From Saccoglossus kowalevskii (taxonomy: Eukaryota; Hemichordata; Enteropneusta; Harrimaniidae), in assembly GCF_000003605.2 (NCBI RefSeq), contig NW_003157233.1, positions 251,977 to 280,487 on the forward strand: 28,511 nucleotides of DNA, in the 5' to 3' direction. How positions within the stretch are numbered: the first letter of the stretch is position 1; each line of letters opens with the position of its first letter. The translations under genes were made by a program, and so were the position numbers. Under the pieces are notes generated by a model that saw only the letters and a list, made by a program, of their open reading frames with translations, was not told the origin of the DNA and made no database searches. Shown one piece after another: positions 3,476 through 26,833 of the stretch.

Positions 3476-3593
3476 AGGTTAATACGAGGATACCTCAAAG
3501 TATGCACTCAGACAGTACGCCTCCGCTGCGCGTCGGTGGATACCGCTGTAGTGTCTTTGTGTATACTTTGAGGTATCCTCCTCGCAATAACCT
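3476..3593. repeat. Foldback element with long imperfect inverted repeat
   Basis: A perfect 18-bp inverted pair, GAGGATACCTCAAAGTAT at 3486-3503 and its complement at 3563-3580, is extended outward to AGGTTA / TAACCT and inward with mismatches. The centre is CpG-rich (GCTGCGCGTCGG). This looks like a small non-autonomous foldback or MITE; a clean target duplication is not evident. A structured small-RNA precursor is a less likely reading. Confidence 0.75.
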
Positions 3594-6195: not shown

Positions 6196-6397
6196 TACTG
6201 TAAAATGACTATTTTTCACTGGGTTTAAATTTCGCTGATTTACCATTTCAGGCATATTCAGTAGGTTTTAAATTCACAGTTTTATCATTTAGATAATGTG
6301 TTCTATGCTAAATTTTACATATTCACAGGGTTTTAATTTAGCGCATTTTCCAGTCAGCAAAATTTAAACCCAGTGAATAATTAACCCTTTTACAGTA
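6196..6397. mobile_element. MITE copy 1 (TA-flanked, CTGTAAAA termini)
   Basis: A 198-bp element (6198-6395) with about 40-bp imperfect terminal inverted repeats starts CTGTAAAA and ends TTTTACAG, with CACTGGGTTTAAATTT inside each end. TA lies directly on both sides, the target duplication made by Tc1/mariner-type transposases. It has no coding capacity, so it would be non-autonomous. It sits 283 bp beyond the GALNT stop and carries the only nearby minus-strand ATTAAA. A second copy is at 26623-26833 in opposite orientation. Confidence 0.88.
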
Positions 6398-6679
6398 CTT
6401 ACTCTGTAGATAAGATGTAAAATACAGTATACAAATAACTTGTGTAATAAGATACAATTCAAATAAACGTTCTGTGATTAAGTCAGCAGTATGTTCCTAT
6501 CAATCTACATAAATAAAATACAAATCCCCCAAATGCACTGTGACGCAATTTTGTTTGCAAAACTAAAAAGCAGATGACAAAATGACTTGTAATTTTTAAA
6601 TTAGTTGTGACGCAACTTTGAAAAGACAAGAGAATTTGCAATTAATATGAAACAACAATGTATGCATATTTAATCACCG

Positions 6680-6802: not shown

Positions 6803-9800
6803 CTGAAACGAAGTGAAAACGATATTAATTGTGCGTTATAAATACACTTGGTGTATGATTGTATTACACTACTACGAGACCCATACACGCCATACACAAC
6901 GACATACTCGTCATACACAACCCTGAGATAGTTGTCCGTATCTCCAATCAGAAATCACAAAAACTTCAAAAGTCTATTCGAACGTTTGACCTCATCGGTT
7001 GACATTGTTGCGAATCACAATGTATTTATAATTCTTTCAGGACGCTAAACTTACCTCATTGAAATTCCAGCCATATTGTTTTCTCGGCACACAACGCTCC
7101 AATTTCACTGTCGATCCATCTGTATACAGACACTCCTCGTTGACACGAAATTCACCGCCTTCATTTAATCGCAACAACTGGCTCCCTCCATAACCATGAC
7201 AACCATACAACGCCACTTTACCGCTAGGAGATCGTCCCATACTATCCACACATTTTGAGGAACCAACACCTCTAACCTAACAAAAAGTAAAAAGATCATC
7301 TCAATACTCAAAATATACTAGTTGTGGAGATGGGCACTAGAAAATCAACTCAAGCACCGAGGTGTGGAGATGTGTATGATGAGTGCAACGGAAATATCAA
7401 ATCAAGTACCCCAGGTGAAGAGATAAATAAGAAGATAATTACCCGGAGATGGGCATAGAGGGTGAAAAAGAACATCGAATCATGCACCCCGGGTACAGGG
7501 ATGGGTATAGTGGGTACAACCGAATATCAAATCAATGATTATGATTGTGATCGGATTTGTGATGTTACTAATTGCTATCTTCGGTTCACGGGTGTGACAG
7601 GTGATTGTCCTTGTGGACCTTGTCGGCCATGAGTGATTACAGTAAACATTCTACATACGTGTACCAATTCAAGTACCCTATAAGTAAGAAGATGGGTAAA
7701 GGTGCAATGTATATGTTAATACAAGTTAATAGTTGTGAGGATTGGGTAAGGGTGAAGTACGTATCAAGTAGTCTAGCAGTCGGTCTTTACAAGTAGTAGT
7801 ACGTATAATAAGTACTCAAGGTGAGAATTGGGTAAGTATGTGATATGTATAGTAAGTAAATGCGGGATTGGATTAAAGTGGAATATGTACATCAACAGGA
7901 GTTGAGCAAAGGAATCCACTTATGCCGGAGATGTTTGTATGCATCACATACGCTGAGGTGTATTGCACGCACACCTTTTCTGTAAGTTATATGGTAATAT
8001 AAAACTAGCATGGGACGAAAGTAGACATTTGGTACGTCCAAAAGCCGTTCGACCAATGAGAGACAAATAATTAGTTTCTAAATCAGAATCCCGCTACAAA
8101 TAATGGTTCATTCATTATACCTAAACATGTGTTGTGAGTTTCGGGACATTCCAGAAAATACTTACTTCTCCCCATCCGATATTTTTAGATATCAGAGGGA
8201 ATCTTTCTGTAATATCATACGCTACTTCGTCCATAAACCATTTGAAATCATGAGGACAGTGTTCTTGGCGGAATTGCACCTGCTCTGTGATGTCACCATA
8301 AGGTTTTCCACGTAGTTCAGGTTTCATACGATAGAAATATTCTTTATACTCGTCCATCCAAACTTCTGCCACACGAAGATAATTCTGCCCGTAATTATAT
8401 CAAGACGTTCAGTGTTTAGAAATCAACAAGTATGATATAATTGGACATGTATGTTTCACGTGTCAGTGTAGCCGTAATAATATGTTGCAACTTACCAGAT
8501 TGTATTCCATTATTCATTCAAATAACAGATATATAATAAATGATGGAAATATTTCATGAGTTCGTCGTTTTATTGTACCTACCTTGTTTACTATTGAAAT
8601 ACCGTCATCACTCTGTGGATACGAATAGGGAATACCTCCTCTCCTATAAATATGACCAACGCGTGAACATGGTACAAACTCTAAGATACCGCCACACATC
8701 CAAATCTGAAATAACAAGCCATGCATGGCACAGTCCCCGTTAGTTATCAAATTTAAGATATATTGTTTTGTTTATAGTAATATAGCTGGAATATAACCAT
8801 GTCAGGAATATGATTATGATGATTGTTTAACATTAAAATGATTGACATTTGTATCTGATCTTCAAACACGTACTTGTCCATATTGAGAGATATTTCTCTG
8901 GAATAGCCTTAATTAAAACAAAATCAGTCGTTTTGAATACATGTATATATCTATAACATGATGTATAACGAATATATAAAATTTTAACACAATCAGTAAA
9001 TACAAGTCAGAAATATGGGTCTAGAAGCGCATTCATTAAAACAAAATTGCCACCAGTCAGCCACTTTTAATCCGATCTGAAAAATGAAATGCTTGATATT
9101 TGATGATTGTTTAGCACAAAAATGACCACCATTCGGCCATTTTGAATAGGATCGTCAAACCAATATATCTGTATTTCTATGACATGATGTATAATGAATA
9201 TTAAATATTTGAACATAATCAGTCAAAGCAATTCAGAGATATGGCACGATAAAAACATAGTTAAACTCTGGTGACCTTGCCCTTTGTTATATAATATAAT
9301 TCCCTAAATATCATAGTTTATTTCAATATGAATATGCATTGTCATAATTAATTTTGAATACAACAGTGGGAAATCAGTCTACCGAATGTACTTAACAAAT
9401 ATAAATATCTTACAAAAACATTGGTGTATAATTTGTTTAATTATTTTAAGGGACATAATTTCAAGCTTTATTCAAAGTAATTCAGATATTTTAGTATAAA
9501 AAAATGCCTCATAGCAGAAACAAAGTGCTGCATTTAGACGTGAATAGATTCATAAAACATGCAAGATAACCGAAAATCTTAGCTGGCTTTTGTCCAAGTA
9601 TTTTGTACAGGTGTCACACGCAACGTAATATTACCGTAATTGGTATAGTACAGGTGTGATGGTTCAAATACCAAAATGGCAACAGTAACAGAAAGACTTC
9701 CCTGGCGGCGATGATAACATACAAACACGGAGCCAACAGATGAGGCTTCAACTGGTACTGGTATTATTATACTCTGCAAACATCAAGTACAATAACGCGG

Positions 9801-12800
9801 TAAAACTCCACTACTCCAATAACTAGATACTTAAACTCCAATACAATTCAACGAGATCTCCGATCTGAACAACACCCCTATATATACCCCACTGTCTATA
9901 AATAGACCATTACATCAGCATACATAATGAGTCTGGAACTTACTACAAATTCTAGAATGTCCCATTACCTTCTATTGTCTTCTGCAGTGTTCTATTACCT
10001 ATTCAACCAGTTTCTAAAAAAAAATCTAGAATATTCCACCCAGACACAGTACGGTTCTAGAACATTCTCAGTGACACGGAAGTGGTAAATAAGTCGTATG
10101 CGAGAACAGGTGTCTGTCAAAAAATAATGATTCACTGATACAAATATGAACTGCCTTATTATATTCATTGTGTGACTACTGTATTATATGAAAATAAAAA
10201 AAAAACACCCTCTATGAATAGCTATCATGTTACAAGCTCTGCTTTGTATGCAAATCAACTTAAATAGTTAGTTGGTGTCCAGTGGAGAGAGAAGTCAACA
10301 GTAGTGTAGCCTCCTGAGAATCTAATCTTCGAACACTGCAATCTTTGTTTGTGAAGTGCGTTTTTAAATTAGTATTATAAAAGCTCTAGCATTCTGTTCT
10401 AATAGCTGAAACAAATTCCTGTGAATTTTCATTTGTCGAATGAACTGTTTGTCAAATACAGAATACATATATTTTAGTACAATTTTCTTCTCAAAATGTG
10501 GATGCAACGTTTTGGATTTTTTATGTATTGTTTTTGATTTGATAACTTTGAACTAAACAGATTTTCTATCAGCTTCAGATCTTTATCAAAGTTTGGCACC
10601 CAGTTCATAGCAGTGCTTATATTGATTTCTGACATCTTGTTTTCTGTAAAGATTTTATTGGTAGGTTTGCAAATGTGTATCAGATTGTGCAAAAAATCTC
10701 TCTATGAGTTAGTTTTGAAACCCAGTCGAGTATTCCCATGGGATTTGGGAGATATATTACCAAAGATATTATTACAAGATAAATGATTTGCTTCACTGAA
10801 CACATACAACAATGCATATTTCCACTGAGATCAGTGACCTTTGATGTGTATCACCAGTGATCAGTCAAGTGGAAACAGTCAAAATATTTTATCAGATTTT
10901 CTCAATTTTTGTATGATATTTTCATACAAGACATCTGTTGTTCAAACTCAGGGAAGACTTTATACTGATGAATAAGGTGACCAAGTTTGATGACGTTTGG
11001 AATAGAATTAGTAAAGTTATTATGCACACAATAACAAGTATTAACGACAGCAATGACGACAACGACAACAACGACGACAACGCCGGACAAATTGTTTTCC
11101 CTTATTATACCTTTCCCTTCCATCTTTGATGGTACGGGCAAGGTAACAAAATGGCCGCCAGTCGGCTATTTTTAATCTAATCTGAAAAACAAATTATTTG
11201 CATCAAGGTCCCATAATGTGTAATGTGTATACCAAATTTGAAATAATCCATCTGTAAACAGCCGAGAAATGCTTGATTTTGATGATTTTTTAGCACAAAA
11301 AAAATGGCCGCCTATTCGGCAATCTTGAATCAGATCGTAAAACAAATTGATGGGCATATGTATAATACCATGTATGATGTATGTGTGAAGTTTGATTATG
11401 ATTGGTCCACCCATTTCTAAGATACAGGTTCGGACGGACGCACGCGCACACACACACACGCACGCACGCACGCGCAGAAGTACGACGCGTACGGGTCAAA
11501 ACATAAGTCCCCGTTTTCGGACTGTATCCCAACGGGGACTAATAAACATTCCACAACTCGTCACAGTCTTTCATTTAACACCAACGTCGACTTTCACCAC
11601 CTTTCATAGACTAAATCTGTGAGTTTTGTTCAAAATTAAAAAACAAATAAATGTGACCAAATGTTGTCCATTCCGTGCAATATTAACAAAGAAAACAAAG
11701 ACAATTAAACAATAAAAGTTAGGGACAATAACATTAGGACGTTCACGGTCCTACGTTGACACGTAGTATATGTGAACGCCGGATTTGCGCTTATGATATT
11801 ACCTTGAAAGAAATTTCGTATTGTTCTCCTCCCCAGATATCAAGTCCATTATCATAACCACCAATGTCGAAAAAGAAAGACCTAGACAAGGCAAATAGAC
11901 CACCAGCCATCACAGGGGACCTGCAGAACAAGTATGATCAAGATGTGTTCATAAAAAAATACAACCGATGAAATATCAGCCAACGTAAAACAAAAAATAA
12001 ACATTGGTTGACGAACACTCTGATGGTGTGATTCATCAGCACACGCTAGACCGGAAGCGCCATGCAATGTAGGTATGCAGCGATATCTACACACCTAATA
12101 CTCAAAGAAAGAAACACAACATACGCAAACACATTATTCAAATACACAAACACATTATTCAAATACGCAAACACATTATTCAAATACACAAACACATTAT
12201 TCAAATACGCAAACACATTATTCAAATACACAAACACATTATTCAAATACACAAACACAATATTCAAATACACAAACACATTATTCTAATACACAAACAC
12301 ATTATTCTAATACACAAACACAATATTCAAATACGCAAACACATTATTCAAATACACAAACACAATATTCAAATACGCAAACACATTATTCAAATACACA
12401 AACACATTATTCAAATACACAAACACAATATTCAAATACACAAACACAATATTCAAATGCAATATACAAATACACAATCACATTATACATATACACAATC
12501 ACAATATTCAAATACACAAACAAAGTATTCAAATACACAAACACATTATTCAAATACATAAACAAAATATTCAAATACACAAACAATATTCAAATACACA
12601 AACAATATTCAAACACACAAACATTATTCAAATACATAACCATAATATTTGAATACACAAACACAATATTTAAATACACAAACACAATATTCAAATACAT
12701 AAACAAAATATTCAAATACACAAACACAATATTCAAATACACAAACATTATTCAAATACATAACCACAATATTTAAATACACAAACACAATATTTAAATA

Positions 12801-15800
12801 CACAAACAATATTCAATTACACAATCGCAATATTCAAATACACAAACACAATATTCAAATACACAAACATTATTCAAATACATAACCACAATATTTAAAT
12901 ACACAAACACAATATTTAAATACACAAACAATATTCAATTACACAATCGCAATATTCAAATACACAAACACAATATTCAAATACATAAACAAAATATTCA
13001 AATACACAAACAATATTCAAATACACAAACAATATTCAAACACACAAACATTATTCAAATACATAACCATAATATTTGAATACACAAACACAATATTCAA
13101 TTACACAAACAATATTCAAATACACAAACATTATTCAAATACATAACCATAATATTTGAATACACAAACACAATATTTAAATACACAAACAATATTCAAT
13201 TACACAATCGCAATATTCAAATACACAAACACAATATTCAAATACATATTCATAATATTTAAATACACAAACACAATATTAAAACACACAAACACATTAT
13301 TCAAATACACAAACACATTATTCAAATACACAAACACAATATTCAAATACACAAACACAATATTCAAATAAACAAACACATTATTCAAATGCACAAACAT
13401 AACATTCAAATATACAAACACATTATTCAAATACACAAACACAATATTCAAATACACAAACACATTATTCAAATACACAAACACATTATTCAAATACACA
13501 AACACAATATTCAAATATGTAAACACATTATTCAAATACACAAACACAATATTCAAATGCAATATACAAATACGCAATCACATTATACATATACACAATC
13601 ACAATATTCAAATACACAAACAAAGTATTCAAATACACAAACACATTATTCAAATACATAAACAAAATATTCAAATACACAAACAATATTCAAATACACA
13701 AACAATATTCAAACACGCAAACATTATTCAAATACATAACCATAATATTTGAATACACAAACACAATATTTAAATACACAAACAATATTCAAATACACAA
13801 TCACAATATTCAAATACACAAACACAATATTCAAATACACAAACATTATTCAAATACATAACCACAATATTTAACTACACAAACACAATATTTAACTACA
13901 CAATCAAAATACACAATCAAAATATTCAAATACACAAACTCAATATTCAAAAACACAATATTCAAATACACAAACACTATATTCAAAAACACAAACACAA
14001 TATTCAAATACACAAACACTATATTCAAAAACACAAACACAATATTCAAATACACAAACTCTATATTCAAAAACACAAACACAATATTCAAATACACAGT
14101 CCCAATATAACTAATGGCCATTCACACGTACGGTACCCATATGAACCACTATTACGGGTTCTTCTAATGACTACTCAAATGAAACATACATGCATGATTC
14201 AATATCACATTCTCATCTAATAACTTATCACGCTACAATATCTGCCTGGTTCAATGTTACGCTCTCTTCTAATAACTTATCGCACTACATTACCTGTATG
14301 GTTCACTGTTACGTTCTCTTCTGTTCGCCTCTTTGGGTGGTATTGGAATACGCTTATAAAAGAAGTCCCAATTGAAAACGCCTCGTGCCATGCCATCAGC
14401 TTGAGGGGCATAACCGAAATTATCAGCATCTACAGCATCTACTAAGGGGCAAACAACCGCCTTCCTGTCAAGGTGTAACAGTACATTAATGTCGTTACTG
14501 GTCACATCATCTGGTAAACTTTTGACTGTACACATATTCATATCAATATCTGCATTATTATTATTATCATAGATATTTGTATGGCCATGTCGACTATATA
14601 CATTAACAATGATGGTTTCTAGTGACGTTTTACCTGTTTTGCTTAATACGTGATAATAGCGGAGGTAACCAATTCGGGGAGCATTCACAGTGAGCGTCCA
14701 GAAACACGACAACTTCGCCCCTTTCAGCATTTATAGCACCAATGGTTCGAGCCCTGATCAAACCTTCCCGTTTAGCGTTTCTTACAAGTTTTATCTTTCC
14801 TTCAAATCTGTCTTGCTTTATATATTCTTCCAATTTGCTCTTCAAATGATCTATCATCGTATCAAACAAAAATTGAAGCAGCGGTGTCAGTGAAGACACA
14901 CGCACATACGCACACACACACACACACATATATACGAATAAATATTAATATTTACCATCACATAGAATATTGCACTTACCTTTGTCACTGAAGTCATCTA
15001 CCATTACAATCTCAGCTAAAAGATGTGATGGTGACGTATTGAATACACTATGTACTGTTCTCATTAGTGTCGACCACCCTTCGTTAATGAACACTAACAC
15101 AACACTTGCTGTTGGCAAGTCCGTCGGATAATGCCAGTATTTACACCTATAAAGTACATTAAATAATTCAGTCTTGACATGACTTGATTTTTTTCAGTTA
15201 GAACAGGACAGGGCATGAAACTCCACTTTTCCCAGGCCAACTGTTTTAATGTTAGCCCCTTAATATTTCAGTCAAAATTAGTAATAATATAAATAATCAA
15301 ATAGTATTTCACAGATCGTTTGTTCCTCATAAGCTAGATTCTATATTTAATAGTAAAACTTCCTGATTCAGACATATAAGTATAACCATATTCCGCACTT
15401 TAAGATTAAGAGATATAACTACATCTATATCTCTGTATATAGTCTGATGCAGGTATATAACTACGTCTATATTTCCGCATATAGTCTGACGCAGGTATAT
15501 ATCTACATTTATATCTCCGCATATAGTCTGACGCAGGTATATATCTACATCTCTATATCTTTGCATATAGTCTGACGCAGGTATATATCTACATCTCTAT
15601 ATCTCTGCATATTGACTGATGCAGGTATATATCTACATTTATATCTCCGCATATAGTCTGACGCAGGTATATATCTACATCTCTATATCTTTGCATATAG
15701 TCTGACGCAGGTATATATCTACATCTCTATATCTTTGCATATTGACTGATGCAGGTATATATCTACATCTCTATATCTCTGCATATTGACTGATGCAGGT

Positions 15801-18800
15801 ATATATCTACATCTCTATATCTCTGCATATAGATATATAGCTAAATCTATATCTATATGTCACTGTATATCTAATTCAGGCCTTTAACAACACTTGTACT
15901 TCAAATAGCCTGTTTCAGGCAGATACATAAATAGAGCCTGCCCATATGTTTATGTTTATGTCTCTGCATGCAGTCTGATTAAGATATATAACTATATGTA
16001 TATATATGCATACACTCGTACATCTGTATATAGCCTGTATAAGCATGTAACTAACACTGACAGAGCTTCAGATCGACAGGAGTGAAAGCTGCTAAAATAT
16101 GACATATTTCTGTATTACAGGAAATCAATGGGAAATTAGTGTTGACGTAAATACAGCTAGTACCCTGGTAAATTGAGGCCTGTTATGTAGTATCACATGG
16201 TACAGCATCTTCACATTCAACTAAATGAAAAATAAACTTACTCTGGATCTCTAATATCTTTTACTGTTCTGTCAAGTGAAATCTGGTCACTGATAACCAT
16301 ATTGAAACCAAATTCTCGTTTTGCTTTCACGTATTTATTTTCATCTGCAGGATTCAATTGTACGGGTATCGCGCCTTCACCAAGCCCAGTACGACGTTCC
16401 GATTTAGGTGGCTCAAAATTACCCACTATTCCAGGCTTAAAAACAGCACCAGCTTCAAATGTAAGTGTGTCTTCTACTATCTCCTTTGTATCCTTCTTGC
16501 CCCCAATGTCTTTTCTCTTTGAATTCAAATCAACTTCGATGCCTTCCACTTTGGGCAAACCGATGACAATGTTCTTACTTATACCCCCGTAATTCTGAAA
16601 TACATGAGAATATAGAAAGTATGAAGTGAGTGTTTGACGGTGTCGACGGTATGCTCGTTGCGAGGGCACTGCAAACTACGAACCGTTTGATGCGCGCTCC
16701 TTGACATCAATACACAAGACAGATTAGCACACAATGTTCGAACTTCATGTCAGTTTAATTTAAGTTTAATAACATGTTTTACGTTTAAATCTGAGTAAAA
16801 TAAAATGTTTAGTTAAGTCGGAATGAATATTACATTAATGTTGTAGTTTCAAAGTTATCACGGCATAATATTATACAATGAATTGTAACAATAAACTATC
16901 GTTTTTTTGCTGATTTAAATTGACAACAGAATTCATCCCTAATGTGTGTAATTCATATAGCGTTCTGGCCCTGATGTATAGCCGATCGATATGCACTGCT
17001 TTATTAAAATGAAATGCCATGATATATGGGATGAAATATAATCCTAATTTTAAGTGCTTTGTGTTCTATGGGTTTTAGACGCGGACAGTTCGAATCTATT
17101 CATGCCAGAAATGTCATTGAGATATCCCTCAGAAAACTAGACAAATAGAACGTTATTTGTCCATGCATCGTCTGTGCCATTTCACTTCAGTAAAGCTATC
17201 TCGCACAACATAGTAGTCGCCGGCAAAGTTGTTAGTATTTACGTTTCTATAAACGGCACAACACACCAGCTTTAAAGAAGTCTACCCCACGAACGCTGTA
17301 ACTTTCAAATATGATTTTTAAGCAATTATTCGAAATTGAAAGAGCTTTCAACCAAGTTACGCCGAAAAATACGACTTCAATAGCCAAATGATCTGTAGGA
17401 ATGTTTCCTTGTTTCACATCAACTGTTGAGAAGCATATAATGTCAGATATATTGAACAGGCGCAGTGATTTCTAATTAAAACGACCGACCGACGTGTTAC
17501 GAATATTAATCAACAAGTTTCGATATGTTTGAAAACACGTTCTCTTACACTTGTCTGATTTTATTGTAAATACCTGTTGTTGTACCATGTCCGCGTCATA
17601 TTTTAGATACAACTACGTAAATGCACTTATATTTTAGATACAACTACGGTAAACGCACTGTTATATTTTATATACGAATACGTAAATGCACTGTTATATT
17701 TTATATACGAATACGTAAACGCACTGTTATATATACGAATACGTAAACGCACTGTTATATTTTATATACGAATACGTAAACGCACTGTTATATATACGAA
17801 TACGTAAACGCACTGTTATATTTTATATACGAATACGTAAACGCACTGTTATATTTTATATACGAATACGTAAATGCACTTATATTTTATATACGAATAC
17901 GTAAACGCACTGTTATATATACGAATACGTAAACGCACTGTTTATTTTATATACGTAAATGCACTGTTATATTTTATATACGAATACATAAATGCACTGT
18001 TATATTTTATATACGTAAACGCACTGTTATATTTTATATACGAATACGTAAATGCACTGTTATATATACGAATACGTAAATGCACTGTTATATTTTATAT
18101 ACGTAAATGCACTGTTATATTTTATATACGAATACATAAATGCACTGTTATATATACGAATACGTAAACGCACTGTTTATTTTATATACGTAAATGCACT
18201 GTTATATTTTATATACGAATACATAAATGCACTGTTATATTTTATATACGTAAACGCACTGTTATATTTTATATACGAATACGTAAATGCACTGTTATAT
18301 TTTATATACGTAAACGCACTGTTATATTTTATATACGAATACGTAAATGCACTGTTATATATACGAATACGTAAATGCACTGTTATATTTTATATACGTA
18401 AATGCACTGTTATATTTTATATACGAATACATAAATGCACTGTTATATTTTATATACGAATACGTAAATGCACTGTTATATTTTATATACGAATACGTAA
18501 ATGCACTGTTATATTTTATATACGAATACATAAATGCACTGTTATATTTTATATACGTAAATGCACTGTTATATTTTATATACGAATACGTAAATGCACT
18601 GTTATATTTTATATACGAATACGTAAATGCACTGTTATATTTTATATACGTAAACGCACTGTTATATTTTATATACGAATACGTAAATGCACTGTTATAT
18701 TTTATATACGAATACATAAATGCACTGTTATATTTTATATACGTAAATGCACTGTTATATTTTATATACGTAAACGCACTGTTATATTTTATATACGAAT

Positions 18801-21800
18801 ACGTAAATGCACTGTTATATATACGAATACGTAAATGCACTGTTATATTTTATATACGAATACGTAAATGCACTGTTATATTTTATATACGAATACGTAA
18901 ATGCACTGTTATATTTTATATACGAATACGTAAATGCACTGTTATATTTTATATACGAATACGTAAATGCACTGTTATATATACGAATACGTAAACGCAC
19001 TGTTATATTTTATATACGAATACGTAAATGCACTGTTATATTTTATATACGAATACATAAATGCACTGTTATATTTTATATACGAATACGTAAATGCACT
19101 GTTATATTTTATATACGTAAACGCACTGTTATATTTTATATACGAATACGTAAATGCACTGTTATATTTTATATACGAATACATAAATGCACTGTTATAT
19201 TTTATATACGAATACGTAAATGCACTGTTATATTTTATATACGAATACGTAAATGCACTGTTATATTTTATATACGAATACGTAAATGCACTGTTATATT
19301 TTATATACGAATACGTAAATGCACTGTTATATTTTATATACGAATACATAAATGCACTGTTATATTTTATATACGTAAACGCACTGTTATATTTTATATA
19401 CGAATACGTAAATGCACTGTTATATTTTATATACGTAAATGCACTGTTATATTTTATATACGTAAACGCACTGTTATATTTTATATACGAATACGTAAAT
19501 GCACTGTTATATTTTATATACGTAAATGCACTGTTATATTTTATATACGAATACATAAATGCACTGTTATATTTTATATACGTAAATGCACTGTTATATT
19601 TTATATACGAATACGTAAATGCACTGTTATATTTTATATACGTAAATGCACTGTTATATTTTATATACGAATACGTAAACGCACTGTTATATTTTATATA
19701 CGTAAATGCACTGTTATATTTTATATACGTAAACGCACTGTTATATTTTATATACAAATACGTAAACGCACTGTTATATTTTATATACGTAAATGCACTG
19801 TTATATTTTATATACGTAAACGCACTGTTATATTTTATATACAAATACGTAAACGCACTGTTATATTTTATATACGAATACGTAAATGCACTGTTATATT
19901 TTATATACGTAAACGCACTGTTATATTTTATATACGAATACGTAAATGCACTGTTATATTTTATATACGTAAACGCACTGTTATATTTTATATACGAATA
20001 CGTAAATGCACTGTTATATTTTATATACGTAAATGCACTGTTATATTTTATATACGTAAACGCACTGTTATATTTTATATACGAATACGTAAATGCACTG
20101 TTATATTTTATATACGTAAACGCACTGTTATATTTTATATACGAATACGTAAATGCACTGTTATATTTTATATACGTAAATGCACTGTTATATTTTATAT
20201 ACGTAAACGCACTGTTATATTTTATATACAAATACGTAAACGCACTGTTATATTTTATATACGAATACGTAAATGCACTGTTATATTTTATATACGTAAA
20301 CGCACTGTTATATTTTATATACGAATACGTAAACGCACTGTTATATTTTATATACGTAAATGCACTGTTATATTTTATATACGTAAACGCACTGTTATAT
20401 TTTATATACAAATACGTAAACGCACTGTTATATTTTATATACGAATACGTAAATGCACTGTTATATTTTATATACGTAAACGCACTGTTATATTTTATAT
20501 ACGAATACATAAATACACTGTTATATTTTATATACGTAAATACACTTATATTTTATATACGAATACGTAAATGCACTGTTATGATATTGTAGATACAACA
20601 GCGTAAATGCACTCTTATATTGTATTGTAATTGTAATTTGGAATAGAATTAGTAAAGTTGTTGTGCACACATTAACAAATATTAACGACGACGACAGACA
20701 GACATTTTTCCCTTAACATACCCTTCCCTTTCATCTTTGATGATACAGGTAAGGTAAAACGATGAAGCATGTCAGCACGAGTCTATTGTAAAATATACAA
20801 TACGTGGCGGGTACCAATAATTTACGAAATGTGATGACGTGGTGTGCATTTATAGCTATGCACTATTTTAATTTCATGTTGCAAACTATGATTGATGTTT
20901 TACATTTCCATATATGATCGTACGTAATCTTGATGTCAGACTGTTTTTTCACTGCGAGATCCCACGTTATGCGTGAAATCGAACGTAAAAACAAGTCCCG
21001 CCAATTGTATTTAACATTGTCTTATATGGTCAACAATAAGACATAGCAAATAAATCATAGATGAAAAAAGAAAGTAAAGCAACTTGCAGTGCATGTCTAT
21101 GTCATGCACTTATTAAAATGGTTAAACGACAAATAAAGTATGTTTGAGAAATGATGAAATGTTGGGGATTTGTGATTTGTTTTGTCATTATATCAAGTCA
21201 TTAAACATCATCATGTATTGTATCAAGCGTAGTCTTTTTTTAGTGGCACAGAAGTATCTCTTAGTATTCCATCGGTGTACATATAATGGTAAGACGGAGA
21301 CGACCATTGCATTAAAAAGGAACTTGCATGTAAGCGAAAAAATAGTAAATTGCCACTAATCGATAATATTTGTTCTTATTACATAAACAAAGATGTGCAC
21401 ATTTAACCCAATATGTATGATCATTATTCCAACTTTGATTTAAATTAGTCTAGTCATCTCCGAGAAACACGTCAAAACAACGATTAAACGCTTTTACATA
21501 AAATTGGCTGTCAGTAATATAGATATTGCTACATATTAATACACTTATATTATAAATCCAGTTATACTTTTTTTATATTTGTGTAGGATTTAGTTTTTTT
21601 ATTGCTGAGAACAACATACATCGAATTTATATGTATATCATTCCTACTTTTTGTGCCGCGTGTCATAACATTCACAATCGACCTGTGCTGACGCGTTTCA
21701 TAATGATGTATTTCGTAATGTTGAAACGTTGAGAATATATTATTTATAATTAAGTTGGAACACGTTTAAAACACGTTTAAAGTGGGCGCATTTGGCTTGA

Positions 21801-23249
21801 ACACGATATTGCATATTTCGCACCTGGTCGCACAAATCCAATGTAACGCGGATTTGTTGTATGGATACAATCATACGAATACTGACTGGGCACATTATTC
21901 AGTTTGTATACGTTTGTCTGCAGAAAATCACGCTAGAAATAGCAAAACCTAAAAAAAAATTTTTTTTAGACATAATGATAAAGAAAGGAAAACGATGAAG
22001 CATGTCAGCACGAGTTTATTGTAAGAGATACGAGACGCGACGGGTATCAATGATTTATGTGAATGTGATGACGTGGTATGCATTGTTAGCTATGCACTAT
22101 TTTATTTTCATGTTCAAACTATGATCGATTATATATATGATCATTATGATCGTTCCCAACTTTCTAACAATTGTTGTTCACTGCGAGATCCAGCAATATG
22201 CGTGAAATCGAATAGAACAAACAATGGTCATAGTGTCGTGAAAACATCGCGTAGGATTCAACAAACGCGAAACTATTTCTGCGCGTGATAATTTTGACGA
22301 AGCTAGGATATCTCAGTGGTATATTGTCTCTGAAAAATTGGCAGTTTGACATTGGGGTATAAAAGAGAACTCAAAATCAAAATTGTTTTGCGACCGGACT
22401 GACGTTCGAACCGCGTCTTTCACACATTGTGCGTGATCCCGCAGTGAACGGAAAGCCACATTTTTGTCGGCATGTTATTGTAAAAATTATTGATGGGAAA
22501 TATAAATATAAACCTGTATTGAGTTACGAACATTGACATTTTATTAGCAACGGTTCTGTATGCAAAGACAGGAAAGCTTTCATTGATTAAAAAGATGTTG
22601 GCCATCTCAACGCTTACAAAATATGCAACATACCCAGAGTTTGGAAACGTATTGTTTCACATACGGGTACGGTGTACTCGCCCCAATTACCACATCAGAC
22701 CTGTATAGGGATGTGTCAGTTCACAACTCCTTGGACACACCCATTGTCCATGAACTAATTACTGAAGTCATTATTCCAAAGCTGTGAATGCAAGTGCTAC
22801 GTCATAACTGCGTAATTTGTTTGTTTTTGTTTTTGATATACATGTACTAGTATTACGTATCAGTTTTTCTAGTATTCTTACCCTAATTCCTGAGTACACT
22901 ATTACACCCCCTCATGTACAGCGACCTCTGCCATTATTTTAGTATTGCAACCCCCCCCCCCCACACCCGGTGTGAAATAAACGCACTGGTTGGCCCCTAA
23001 TTATTCACCTCCGCAGAAGAAGGACTTGTCGCGATTACTTATATTTATATACAATACCTGTTCCTTCTTTTTAATGTGGCTATCCAACGACGAAAAGTCA
23101 TTCTTTTCAATCTGAGAAAGGTCACCGCTATCAGTTCTGTCGGGTTGTAGATTAGGTATAGTTATGTACAGTTTCCAACAAAACAGTGCAAACATGATAA
23201 ACACCATTAAACGTAATACACGCCGCTTCTTCCACACATACACGATCAT
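6680..23249 (-). CDS. GALNT10-like: Polypeptide N-acetylgalactosaminyltransferase, GALNT10-like (complete gene, 10 coding exons)
   Basis: This enzyme transfers GalNAc from UDP-GalNAc to Ser/Thr of proteins, starting mucin-type O-glycans in the Golgi lumen. Seen: ten exons (listed separately) bounded by AG/GT with compatible phases add to 1905 nt, giving 634 residues; the family is usually about 560-640. Order: basic tail (KKRR, residues 7-10), signal anchor (about 11-30), stem (about 31-155), catalytic domain (about 157-505) and ricin-type lectin domain (about 518-634). Key residues: INEGW 202-206, DDFSDKD 232-238, the DxH metal site D289-A-H291, WGGEQ 396-400, and GHIYR with the likely metal ligand H424. 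The family is known by these motifs. The WGGEQ form, where many members have WGGEN, and KRIPIPP point to the GALNT10 group; GALNT7 or an invertebrate-specific paralog is the alternative. A 5' non-coding exon may lie further upstream. No frameshift or missing catalytic residue is seen. Confidence 0.95.
7055..7276 (-). CDS. GALNT10-like: GALNT exon 9: lectin domain alpha and beta repeats
   Basis: Encodes residues 521-594. The alpha repeat has CVD (529-531), a variant of CLD, and [11 protein letters not shown], where Cys529 and Cys546 should pair and Asp531 would contact GalNAc. Its final QxW is QLL. The beta repeat starts at Cys569 (CLYT, so the sugar-binding Asp of CLD is absent) and ends [12 protein letters not shown]. 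Acceptor TTTGTTAG|GTTAGA; donor AATGAG|GTAAGT, phase 0. Confidence 0.94.
7318..7915. repeat. Degenerate minisatellite in GALNT intron 8
   Basis: Recurring phrases such as GGAGATGGGTATAG, CGAATATCAAATCAAG and CACCCCGGGT return at roughly 55-65-bp spacing (around 7325, 7365, 7445, 7500) and in weaker form to about 7900. The units are strongly diverged, so this is an old array. The 63-codon open frame at 7605-7796 lies within it and is not taken as a gene. Confidence 0.65.
8166..8384 (-). CDS. GALNT10-like: GALNT exon 8: end of catalytic domain and linker
   Basis: Encodes residues 448-520. [15 protein letters not shown] (451-465) is a family signature, followed by the helical end of the catalytic domain, CPHDFKWFM, and the linker ending NIGWGE. 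The acceptor (ACGGGCAG|AATT) has a poor pyrimidine tract, but phase and sequence conservation fix the junction. Donor GGAGAA|GTAAGT, phase 0. Confidence 0.95.
8583..8705 (-). CDS. GALNT10-like: GALNT exon 7: CSRVGHIYR segment
   Basis: Encodes residues 407-447. IWMCGG and [11 protein letters not shown] are near-invariant in the family; His424 is expected to be the third metal ligand with D289 and H291. The flexible catalytic loop follows ([13 protein letters not shown]). Acceptor TTATTTCAG|ATTTGG; donor AACAAG|GTAGGT, phase 0. Confidence 0.96.
8790..9275. repeat. Interspersed repeat, two diverged copies in intron 6
   Basis: Two similar blocks (about 8810-9030 and 9040-9275) share GATGATTGTTTA, CATTCATTAAAACAAAATTG-like sequence, GACATGATGTATAA.GAATAT and an AACACAATCAGT/AACATAATCAGT phrase. 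The same family is seen again at 11140-11430 (GCCGCC...TCGGC, TTTTTAGCACAAAAA, GATGGGCATATGTATAATACC). Confidence 0.65.
9579..9773 (-). other. Possible alternative terminal exon in intron 6 (unconfirmed)
   Basis: A strong-looking acceptor (TTGATGTTTGCAG) at 9774-9775 is followed by 64 open codons and TAA. Its phase (0) matches the donor of GALNT exon 6. The peptide is rich in beta-strand-type residues ([20 protein letters not shown] ... NTWTKAS) and loosely recalls the end of an extracellular module such as MAM, but I cannot name it with confidence. It could be an alternative 3' exon, a captured exon relic, or chance. Confidence 0.25.
10990..11145. repeat. Interspersed repeat R, copy 1 (intron 6)
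   Basis: TTTGGAATAGAATTAGTAAAG, TATGCACACA.TAACAA.TATTAACGAC, a (GACAAC)n-like microsatellite, and CCTTTCCCTTCCATCTTTGATG are shared in the same order with 20634-20756 beside the intron 1 satellite. It is therefore a dispersed family with an internal microsatellite, followed here by the GGCCGCC-type block. Confidence 0.8.
11140..11480. repeat. GGCCGCC-type interspersed repeat pair plus (CA)/(CGCA) microsatellite
   Basis: AAAATGGCCGCCAGTCGGC at about 11150 and AAAATGGCCGCCTATTCGGC at about 11302 start two related blocks, each followed by TTTTAATC/TTGAATC, AATCTGAAAAAC/GATCGTAAAAC and AAATT. It ends in GGTTCGGACGGACGCACGCG and an alternating purine-pyrimidine CA/GCAC run (11434-11477) that could adopt Z-DNA. 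Confidence 0.7.
11803..11920 (-). CDS. GALNT10-like: GALNT exon 6: WGGEQ motif
   Basis: Encodes residues 368-406. [13 protein letters not shown], then [20 protein letters not shown], the Gal/GalNAc-transferase motif of the family (WGGEQ at 396-400). Acceptor GTTCTGCAG|GTCC; donor TTCAAG|GTAATA, phase 0. Exon 6 is separated from exon 5 by the 2.4-kb intron holding the 21-bp array. Confidence 0.96.
12110..14105. repeat. 2-kb array of 21-bp AT-rich units in intron 5
   Basis: The unit is close to TTCAAATACACAAACACATTA (21 bp) with ATT/TAT and ACA/ACG variants and some 17-19-bp shortened units. The left 350 bp is nearly uniform; the middle is mixed. A block of about 230 bp at 12451-12680 recurs with few changes at 13551-13780, an exact 1100-bp offset, and a shorter 122-bp offset repeat lies at about 12745-12960. 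Open frames on both strands (up to 125 codons) reflect the unit length and are not genes. Confidence 0.95.
14294..14464 (-). CDS. GALNT10-like: GALNT exon 5: central catalytic domain
   Basis: Encodes residues 311-366 plus split arginine codons 310 and 367. Contains [11 protein letters not shown], then [18 protein letters not shown], the acceptor-side loop region conserved in GALNTs; KRIPIPP resembles GALNT10 more than GALNT1/2. RREXNSEP-type charged residues follow before the exon 6 junction. Acceptor CTTGACAG|GAAG; donor TACAG|GTAATG. Intron 4 (14465-14633, 169 bp) separates it from exon 4. Confidence 0.95.
14634..14850 (-). CDS. GALNT10-like: GALNT exon 4: DxH metal-binding segment
   Basis: Encodes residues 239-309 plus split codons. 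REGLIRAR (265-272) and [10 protein letters not shown] (284-293) carry the Asp-x-His site that holds Mn2+ and the UDP diphosphate; here it is DAH where many paralogs have [13 protein letters not shown] follows. The acceptor is GATGATAG|ATCATT; the in-frame open stretch upstream of it (to about 14929) is intron and includes an (AC)n tract. Donor AACAG|GTAAAA; read-through meets TAA at once. Confidence 0.95.
14905..14930. repeat. (AC)n microsatellite in intron 3
   Basis: ACACACGCACATACGCACACACAC run inside the 129-bp intron between exons 3 and 4, overlapping its pyrimidine-rich part on the minus strand. Confidence 0.85.
14980..15146 (-). CDS. GALNT10-like: GALNT exon 3: first half of GT-A nucleotide-sugar fold
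   Basis: Encodes residues 183-237 plus split codons at both ends. It begins [11 protein letters not shown] (Cys183 is a conserved disulfide cysteine) and contains [20 protein letters not shown], the first Rossmann-like strand and helix that bind UDP, then [12 protein letters not shown]. Acceptor TTATAG|GTGT; donor AAAG|GTAAGT. The split codon with exon 4 restores Asp238, completing DFSDKDHL, typical of the family. Confidence 0.96.
15404..15850. repeat. 42-44-bp tandem array in intron 2
   Basis: About ten units built on GCATATAGTCTGACGCAGG followed by TATATATCTACATCTCTATATCT. Spacing measured between successive CATAT marks is 44 and 42 bp. Variants are GACGCAGG/GATGCAGG, TCCGCAT/TCTGCAT/TTTGCAT and AGTCTG/TTGACTG. 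Decayed units continue to about 16040. Confidence 0.93.
16242..16594 (-). CDS. GALNT10-like: GALNT exon 2: stem and start of catalytic domain
   Basis: Encodes residues 65-181 and two bases of codon 182. The acceptor is ATTTCAG|AATTAC and the donor CCAGA|GTAAGT. The first about 90 residues are a Lys/Glu/Gly/Pro-rich stem. The last part, from REFGFN (about 157) through ISDQISLDR to KDIRDPE, is the conserved entry to the catalytic domain in all GALNTs. Reading into the intron gives an immediate stop (GAG TAA). Confidence 0.93.
17593..20625. repeat. 3-kb satellite array of 33- and 27-bp units in intron 1
   Basis: Core unit: TGCACTGTTATATTTTATAT then ACGAATACGTAAA (33 bp). A shorter unit lacks GAATAC (27 bp) and another lacks TTTATA (27 bp, mainly at the left end). 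About 100 units. Both edges carry diverged monomers with TTTAGATACAACTACG (17600-17655) and TTGTAGATACAACAGCG (20585-20605), so the array grew outward from a homogenised core. All unit lengths are multiples of three, giving apparent open frames up to 587 codons in several overlapping frames and 511 on the minus strand; none is a credible gene. Confidence 0.97.
20634..20756. repeat. Interspersed repeat R, copy 2 (intron 1)
   Basis: TTTGGAATAGAATTAGTAAAG through CATCTTTGATGATACAGGTAAGG matches 10990-11145 in order and orientation, with a short GAC repeat in place of the longer GACAAC run. It directly abuts the right edge of the satellite. Confidence 0.8.
20757..20990 (+). repeat. 230-bp interspersed repeat S, copy A
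   Basis: Begins AAAACGATGAAGCATGTCAG and ends TTCACTGCGAGATCC...GCGTGAAATCGAACG. The same sequence, about 75-80 percent alike by eye, is at 21988-22212 in direct orientation. The GAAATCGAACG near the end resembles a degenerate tRNA B box (GGTTCGAAC), so a SINE-type origin is possible. Confidence 0.75.
21988..22212 (+). repeat. 230-bp interspersed repeat S, copy B
   Basis: Shares AACGATGAAGCATGTCAGCA, TGTGATGACGTGGT.TGCATT, TAGCTATGCACTATTTTA and CACTGCGAGATCC with copy A, in the same order. The two direct copies bracket about 1 kb of AT-rich DNA with no recognised reading frame. Confidence 0.75.
22398..22447 (-). repeat. Partial inverted copy of repeat S
   Basis: On the minus strand this reads GTTCACTGCGGGATCACGCA and then GGTTCGAACGTC, matching the 3' end of repeat S with a better preserved B-box-like core. 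A tRNA-A-box-like string (ATCTCAGTGGTA) lies at 22309-22320 on the plus strand, but its orientation does not agree, so a full SINE is not claimed. Confidence 0.5.
22951..22962. repeat. Poly-C run (12)
   Basis: Twelve C in a row, followed by CACACCC, in intron 1 about 100 bp downstream (in gene sense) of exon 1. On the transcribed strand it is a G run close to the 5' splice site of intron 1. Confidence 0.9.
23058..23249 (-). CDS. GALNT10-like: GALNT exon 1: start codon, cytoplasmic tail, signal anchor, start of stem
   Basis: Encodes residues 1-64. The ATG at 23249-23247 has A at -3 and an in-frame TGA three codons upstream, so this start is well supported. KKRR at 7-10 precedes one hydrophobic stretch (about 11-30, [10 protein letters not shown]...), which fits a type II Golgi membrane protein. 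The rest is a hydrophilic, Asp/Lys-rich stem. The donor is CAG|GTATTG and the exon ends in phase 0. An AG just before the CACAATG could be an acceptor for an upstream 5' untranslated exon. N-terminal sequence is poorly conserved in this family, so linkage to exon 2 rests on phase, topology and absence of a better candidate; a further small stem exon within intron 1 cannot be excluded. Confidence 0.85.
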
Positions 23250-26060: not shown

Positions 26061-26622
26061 GGGGAATCCATGGAAAATCTGACGTGGGTGATTTTCAAAT
26101 TGGCACGAAATGAATGCTCCAAAAATAACTGTTCTACGTTATTGCGCATGATAAAAAGTCTACCATTTCATTTAACTTTTTAACTGCTAAATATTGTATA
26201 GTCCCTAGGTACAGAATCCGAATTGACATGGCATGAGCCAGATGTCTCTGCTGTCACACGCGTCGAGTACCACTGCCAGCAAACCCTCTTCTTTCATCCG
26301 TGATCAACCTGTAGTTAAACTTAGGTCAGTCCATGCATGGATAAGGCCTTCTATTATGCATTGATACTACTAGTACTTCAGTCTACAACACAAACGACAA
26401 GATTGTGTTGTCATTGTAAATCCTCCGTGTTGAATCAACACAAAATCGGTGATTTCCAAGTTCAGGGGCAAGATCTTCATTGCAAGTAGGGCCTGTGTGT
26501 CCAGTACGTTCGCTGCTCACAGTTTAAACATCAAACTGGCAACAATAGACAATAACATATAATTTCAGGAAGCATTTTGAGTACGTGTCCCGATAAACAC
26601 AGCTCTATTTAGTTACAGTACA

Positions 26623-26833
26623 TACTGAAAAAGAATTAATTATTCACTGGGTTTTAATTTTGCTTATTTCGCTGACTGACAAATGCGCTAAATTGAAGCC
26701 CAGTGAATATGTAAAATTTAGCATAGAACACATTATCTAAATGATAAAACCGTGAATTTAAAACAAACTGAATATGCCTGAAATGGCAAATCAGCGAAAA
26801 GTAAACCCAGTGAAAATTAGTCAGTTTACAGTA
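26623..26833. mobile_element. MITE copy 2 (inverted relative to copy 1)
   Basis: Reverse-complement relative of 6196-6397: CACTGGGTTTTAATTTTGC near the left end, TAAACCCAGTG near the right end, TTTACAG then TA at the right edge and TACTGAAAAA at the left (one small loss in the CTGTAAAA end). The inner TAGCATAGAACACATTATC is shared. About 207 bp, non-coding. Confidence 0.87.

Follow-up and report, generated by a model that had tools for sequence, protein, structure and literature searches.

Genomic context of the array

In this study, the variation of a 33-bp tandem array was investigated in a window of 28,511 nucleotides, the whole stretch of DNA analysed, from the hemichordate Saccoglossus kowalevskii (NCBI RefSeq assembly GCF_000003605.2, contig NW_003157233.1, positions 251,977 to 280,487 of the forward strand). 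All positions below are those of this window. A GALNT7/10-like gene is predicted on the minus strand, and the array is situated in what would be its first coding intron; the features of the locus are collected in Table 1. An earlier note on this DNA had read the array as a methylated satellite within a transcribed gene, and the evidence bearing on that interpretation is presented here.

Table 1 Features of the array and its surroundings
Feature	Position	Strand	Basis
Core tandem array, 96 units, 12 sequence types	17663..20580		Tandem Repeats Finder and CACT-anchor cutting
Two degraded left edge units, AGATACAAC (CpA rather than CpG at CpG1)	17599..17662		Unit cutting and comparison
Degraded right edge unit, likewise AGATACAAC, plus further non-CpG differences	20581..20616		Unit cutting and comparison
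Interspersed-repeat fragment adjoining the right edge of the array	20637..20757	+	72% identical, 151 alignment columns, to 10996-11146
Predicted first coding exon, ATG, 64 amino acids, one hydrophobic stretch, donor CAG/GTATTG, phase 0	23058..23249	-	Sequence
Predicted first coding intron, 6,463 nt, GTATTG...TTTCAG, holds the array	16595..23057	-	Splice-signal inspection
Predicted second coding exon (stem), GALNT7-similar, donor A/GTAAGT	16242..16594	-	6iwq match

Tandem Repeats Finder reported 99.3 copies of period 33 between 17598 and 20625, in agreement with the location and the approximately 100 units given in the earlier note. The segment 17571-20660 was split at a CACT anchor into 100 pieces, of which 96 were core units and four were set aside, namely the piece at 17571 (flank and first edge unit), the edge units at 17629 and 20581, and the tail at 20617. 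The core spans 2,918 bases and comprises 54 units of a 33-bp class, 34 of a 27-bp class (6-bp deletion) and 8 of a 28-bp class (5-bp deletion); these class counts include one 31-mer, two 26-mers and a single 25-mer. Besides point variants, core units differ only by length changes of 6, 5, 1 and 2 bp. No Rfam match at the gathering threshold and no tRNA (ARAGORN) were obtained. Open frames of up to 587 amino acids run through the array and were considered as a gene; this candidate was rejected, because the frames are probably a by-product of stop-free units whose length is mostly 33 or 27 bp.

The host gene was predicted from exon similarity and splice signals. The minus-strand segment 16238-16600 matches GALNT7 (6iwq, E 4.4e-14), and GALNT10 is the best match of minus-strand 14290-14730 (2d7i, E 7.5e-13). 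Pfam searches with six open reading frames (ORFs), including both GALNT-matching frames, returned no GALNT family and only two weak matches below the cut-off. The stem exon begins with TTTCAG/AATTACGG at 16594 and has its donor at 16241. Of six hydrophobic frames on the minus strand above 16500, one was picked by eye as the first coding exon, a putative transmembrane exon; it is predicted to supply the ATG and to join the stem exon across GT-AG borders that are both in phase 0. The term first coding intron is used because a non-coding exon may lie upstream. Further exon-like pieces down to about 7.0 kb were spotted by eye in ORF lists on the pattern of the family. The placement of the array in intron 1 of a transcribed gene, as claimed previously, stands with both the GALNT7/10-like gene and its first coding intron as predictions.

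Variation at the three CpG sites

The unit contains three CpGs, and their states were counted in all 96 core units, to which the results below refer unless edge units are named. CpG1 (ATACG/AAT) reads CG in 58 units and CA in 4, and is absent from the 34 units with the 6-bp deletion. CpG2 (TACG/TAA) reads CG in 85 units and CA in 11, and CpG3 (AAACG/CAC) reads CG in 33, TG in 61 and TA in 2. A wrap-around alignment, made separately against the 33-bp consensus, gave agreeing counts, and 4 of the 33 columns segregated, all of them within the three CpGs. Each of these four positions is a transition at a CpG position. Letter variation in the core is thus confirmed by unit counts and alignment to be CpG-only, as the earlier note had proposed. 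Among the literature matches listed, judged by title and the start of the abstract, none appeared to report CpG-only variation in an intronic array, and such a report may exist elsewhere. The two TA units at CpG3 are neighbours (20490 and 20523) in which both CpG letters are changed, so that one of the two steps occurred outside a CpG.

The same claim does not extend to the edges of the array. All three edge units carry AGATACAAC, compared with ATATACGAA in the core; this difference involves CpG1 and two positions outside CpGs, and every edge unit also bears differences of its own. Because both ends of the array share CpA, this state may be ancestral at CpG1 and the CpG of the core may be a gain, the change having gone from CpA to CpG. 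Given an ancestral CpA, the four core units with CA at CpG1 would be old rather than decayed.

Copies and independent changes

Deamination of a methylated CpG can take place on either strand and yields TG or CA. Since methylation exposes both strands, independent hits should give both products at every CpG. The single-step products in the core were one-sided: CA at CpG1 (4:0), CA at CpG2 (11:0) and TG at CpG3 (61:0). The mirror single-step product was therefore zero at each of the three CpGs, and the joint presence of TG and CA expected of a CpG-decay repeat was not found at any of them. With copies treated as independent, the two-sided p values were 0.001 for CpG2 and 9e-19 for CpG3. The two TA units are the only trace of a G-to-A change at CpG3, and none of the core units carried a CpG change private to itself.

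The variants were also linked with each other, with unit length and with their neighbours. CG at CpG3 was found in 4/4 units with CA at CpG1 (p 7e-4), and 11/11 units with CA at CpG2 belonged to the 33-bp class (p 0.001). CG at CpG3 occurred in 10/54 units of the 33-bp class versus 18/34 units of 27-bp class (p 0.001). The core contained 63, 30 and 13 repeated windows of 3, 4 and 5 sequence types, compared with shuffle means of 28.6, 6.9 and 1.3, and these counts were matched in 0, 0 and 2 of 5000 shuffles. Along the array, type J, type C with H, and type F formed clusters (equal tightness in 209, 51 and 78 of 5000 shuffles). The units run head to tail, and blocks of 3 to 5 of them are repeated beyond chance and blocks of 6 are not; this is the higher-order structure of a satellite-like array. 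Homogenisation, another element of the earlier note, is borne out by these blocks and by the occurrence of 12 types among the 96 units.

Wherever plain 27-bp units adjoined in the core, a TG type preceded a CG type (7 cases versus 2.4 expected), and the other three orders were absent (0 versus 6.6 expected).

About four point changes, multiplied by copying, make up the letter variation of the 96 core units. One-sided products, together with the placement of the variants in repeated unit blocks, indicate few founder changes that were then copied; the variants are accordingly not recurrent in the sense of the earlier note, and their counts reflect copies rather than independent mutations. The large numbers of units with TG or CA (61, 11 and 4 of 96) could suggest ongoing deamination, in which most such units are recent independent hits on methylated CpGs. 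The missing mirror products, the lack of private CpG changes, the linkage to unit length and neighbours and the 176 CpGs that remain in the 2.9-kb core leave this explanation hardly credible, and recurrent independent deamination was rejected on account of the one-sided single-step products.

CpG and G/C effects within the unit

The base composition of the unit bears on how CpG-only variation can be read. In the CpG-richest unit, 6 of the 9 G/C positions lie within CpGs, and for this reason a CpG effect is confounded with a G/C effect and ordinary G/C transitions look like CpG decay. Conditioned on G/C positions, the location of 4/4 segregating positions in CpGs has p = 0.12, and that of 3/3 has p = 0.24. 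When the TA change is scored as non-CpG, a 10-fold and an equal CpG rate give 0.041 and 0.099, a ratio of 0.4. Because the core has only about four point changes, the comparison of CpG and non-CpG substitution frequencies suggested in the earlier note is indecisive within the array, and the array by itself cannot separate a CpG effect from a G/C effect.

Transitions and CpG content in the neighbourhood

Interspersed repeats of the window were used as a local control. After the tandem arrays were masked, self-alignment of the window gave 12 matches at E up to 1e-4, and removal of the palindromic self-matches 3486-3580 and 26641-26709 left 10 repeat pairs; most of these lie outside intron 1 and the control is a rough yardstick. 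Transitions affected 21/93 CpG and 78/411 other G/C positions (odds ratio (OR) 1.25, 95% confidence interval (CI) 0.72-2.15, Fisher p 0.47). Similar values were obtained with both palindromes included as 12 pairs (26/115 versus 87/471; OR 1.29, CI 0.79-2.12) and with two overlapping pairs omitted (17/80 versus 63/328; OR 1.14, CI 0.62-2.07). In the pair with both copies in intron 1, transitions were found at 5/30 CpG and 12/70 other G/C positions. CpG transitions in the repeat pairs of the neighbourhood were thus not well above those at other G/C positions, and the control does not favour strong CpG hypermutability. The palindrome 26641-26709 showed no lean to CpG decay.

The observed/expected ratio (o/e) of CpG was 4.05 for the core, 1.26 for the remainder of intron 1, 1.13 for exon 1, 0.82 for exon 2 and 0.95 across 7000-23249 without arrays. 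The depletion that CpG decay would leave was found neither in the core nor in the rest of the intron. The TG+CA o/e of the core was 0.99.

Several of these repeats deserve mention in themselves. The two copies in intron 1 (20740-20983 and 21975-22212) lie on the right side of the array as direct repeats of roughly 240 bp that share 81% identity. The two palindromes are imperfect, 74-75% identical to their own reverse complement, and are possibly foldback elements. An inverted pair at 6196-6403 and 26617-26833 (87% identical, about 20 kb apart) is apparently one short interspersed element in two copies. When the window is stepped through by 1 kb, CpG o/e is lowest at 10001-11000, where TG+CA o/e is 1.39; this kilobase appears CpG-depleted.

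Two further tandem arrays are present within the window. The 21-bp array at 12121-14098 (about 96 copies) lies within the span of the GALNT-like gene and is far more varied than the 33-bp array: 17/21 columns segregate, and CG is the minority state (7 CG:85 CA, and 3 CG:72 CA at another column). Its plus strand is nearly G-free, with a GC skew down to -0.93. A 44-bp array (15413-15832; 9.7 copies, with a higher period of 130 bp) separates the stem exon from the following GALNT-like piece, and 9/44 of its columns segregate.

Flanks and a possible mobile carrier

The fragment at the right edge of the array recurs at 10996-11146, which suggests that the array could be the central repeat tract of an intron-inserted non-autonomous Helentron-like (HINE) element. 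This proposal concerns origin and is compatible with the other readings. Three or more successive GAC(N) motifs occur only twice in the window, about 104 bp to the left (17483-17494) and 71 bp to the right (20687-20704) of the array, and a related GAC-rich tract (11043-11082) lies inside the second flank copy. Pacific oyster Cg_HINE elements are described with central repeat arrays next to GTCY/GTCC/GTCK microsatellites (PMC7492417), and the array here likewise has an interspersed flank and, close by, a microsatellite-like GAC/GTC tract. Unlike the Cg_HINE elements described there, the flanks here are not joined by an inverted repeat: ungapped comparison of 17350-17598 with 20617-20950 gave none with a score of at least 9 (46 of 100 shuffles have one), and 17350-17598 holds no hairpin of at least 6 bp. 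The subterminal inverted repeats and 3' palindrome of HINE elements were accordingly not found in these two flanks by ungapped search, and the second flank copy has no array beside it. A HINE carrier is considered rather doubtful on this balance.

Interpretation

The pattern would be explained by an intronic array that was homogenised from few founder variants and whose G/C sites are mostly CpG, to which we assign a probability of roughly 0.78. Through slippage or unequal exchange, a satellite-like array of minisatellite scale would have grown and been homogenised from few variant units. Each of about four point changes, and of a similar number (about four) of small length changes, probably arose once or a few times and would then have been block-copied. 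Ordinary G/C transitions would resemble CpG decay in such a unit, given the share of its G/C positions that lie in CpGs, and germline methylation would not need to be assumed. The linkage, the repeated blocks and the one-sided products are direct observations; that exchange was the mechanism, and how many times the changes arose, we infer from them.

The following results weigh against this explanation. If all 33 positions were equal, 4/4 segregating positions would fall among the 6 CpG positions with p = 3.7e-4; position-blind chance is thus unlikely, so a CpG excess fits the data too. A 10-fold CpG rate is about 4x likelier than equal rates (0.82 versus 0.20) when all four changes are taken as CpG hits. 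The 4:0 split at CpG1 is not significant alone (p 0.125), repeated 6-type windows are unremarkable (2 versus a mean of 0.2, matched in 460/5000 shuffles), and types B, G and E are unclustered (4417, 883 and 783 of 5000 shuffles equally tight). In the surroundings, the palindrome 3486-3580 has five CG/TG-or-CA versus two CG/CG column pairs, counted from both arms, and one CpG column of the 44-bp array, in the next predicted intron, shows 5 CG:4 TG. TG+CA in the rest of intron 1 is above expectation (o/e 1.26), and two kilobases are CpG-poor (10001-11000, o/e 0.37; 15001-16000, o/e 0.59).

In a weaker form of the earlier view, the founder changes would have been CpG deaminations in a germline-methylated array and would have been spread by exchange; its support is that all four segregating positions are CpG transitions, with the small position-blind p. 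The G/C confounding, the modest odds ratio of the repeat pairs, which gives no sign of local hypermutability, the undepleted CpG of the core and the rest of the intron, and the possible gain at CpG1 suggested by CpA in 3/3 edge units make methylated founders unlikely. It is more improbable still that the array is a dense intragenic CpG array methylated in the germline, in which unit copying restores CpGs faster than deamination removes them and leaves few amplified TG/CA alleles. On the grounds of mirror products, private changes, G/C-conditioned positions, repeat pairs and CpG content, the claim that the pattern points to methylation followed by deamination is not sustained, and the interpretation in the earlier note is partly supported as a whole.

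Homogenisation of few founder variants as the favoured explanation has a wider implication, in that array units counted as independent mutations can mimic a methylation signature. Three checks that use sequence only, namely mirror products, G/C-conditioned positions and linkage with unit length, are usable on other arrays. Were the array in fact methylated, it would offer a natural test that sets homogenisation against deamination.

Comparison with known systems

Methylation of intronic repeats is known in cnidarians (PMC8857917). For the bivalve satellite SSUsat, a measured methylation of 5.65% of CpG sites is reported (PMC5537241). The array is like SSUsat in being a CpG-containing satellite; the two differ in that SSUsat was characterised by measured methylation and the array by its sequence. 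A further source concerns fish centromeres and has no bearing on methylation of the array (PMC5705604). The cnidarian and bivalve cases make methylation here possible and do not show it.

Satellite-like tandem arrays of minisatellite scale, dispersed in introns and with higher-order block structure, form a general class. The array of S. kowalevskii, as read from its letters alone, resembles these dispersed intronic arrays in its short unit, its approximately 100 copies, its block-copied length and point variants and its degraded edges.

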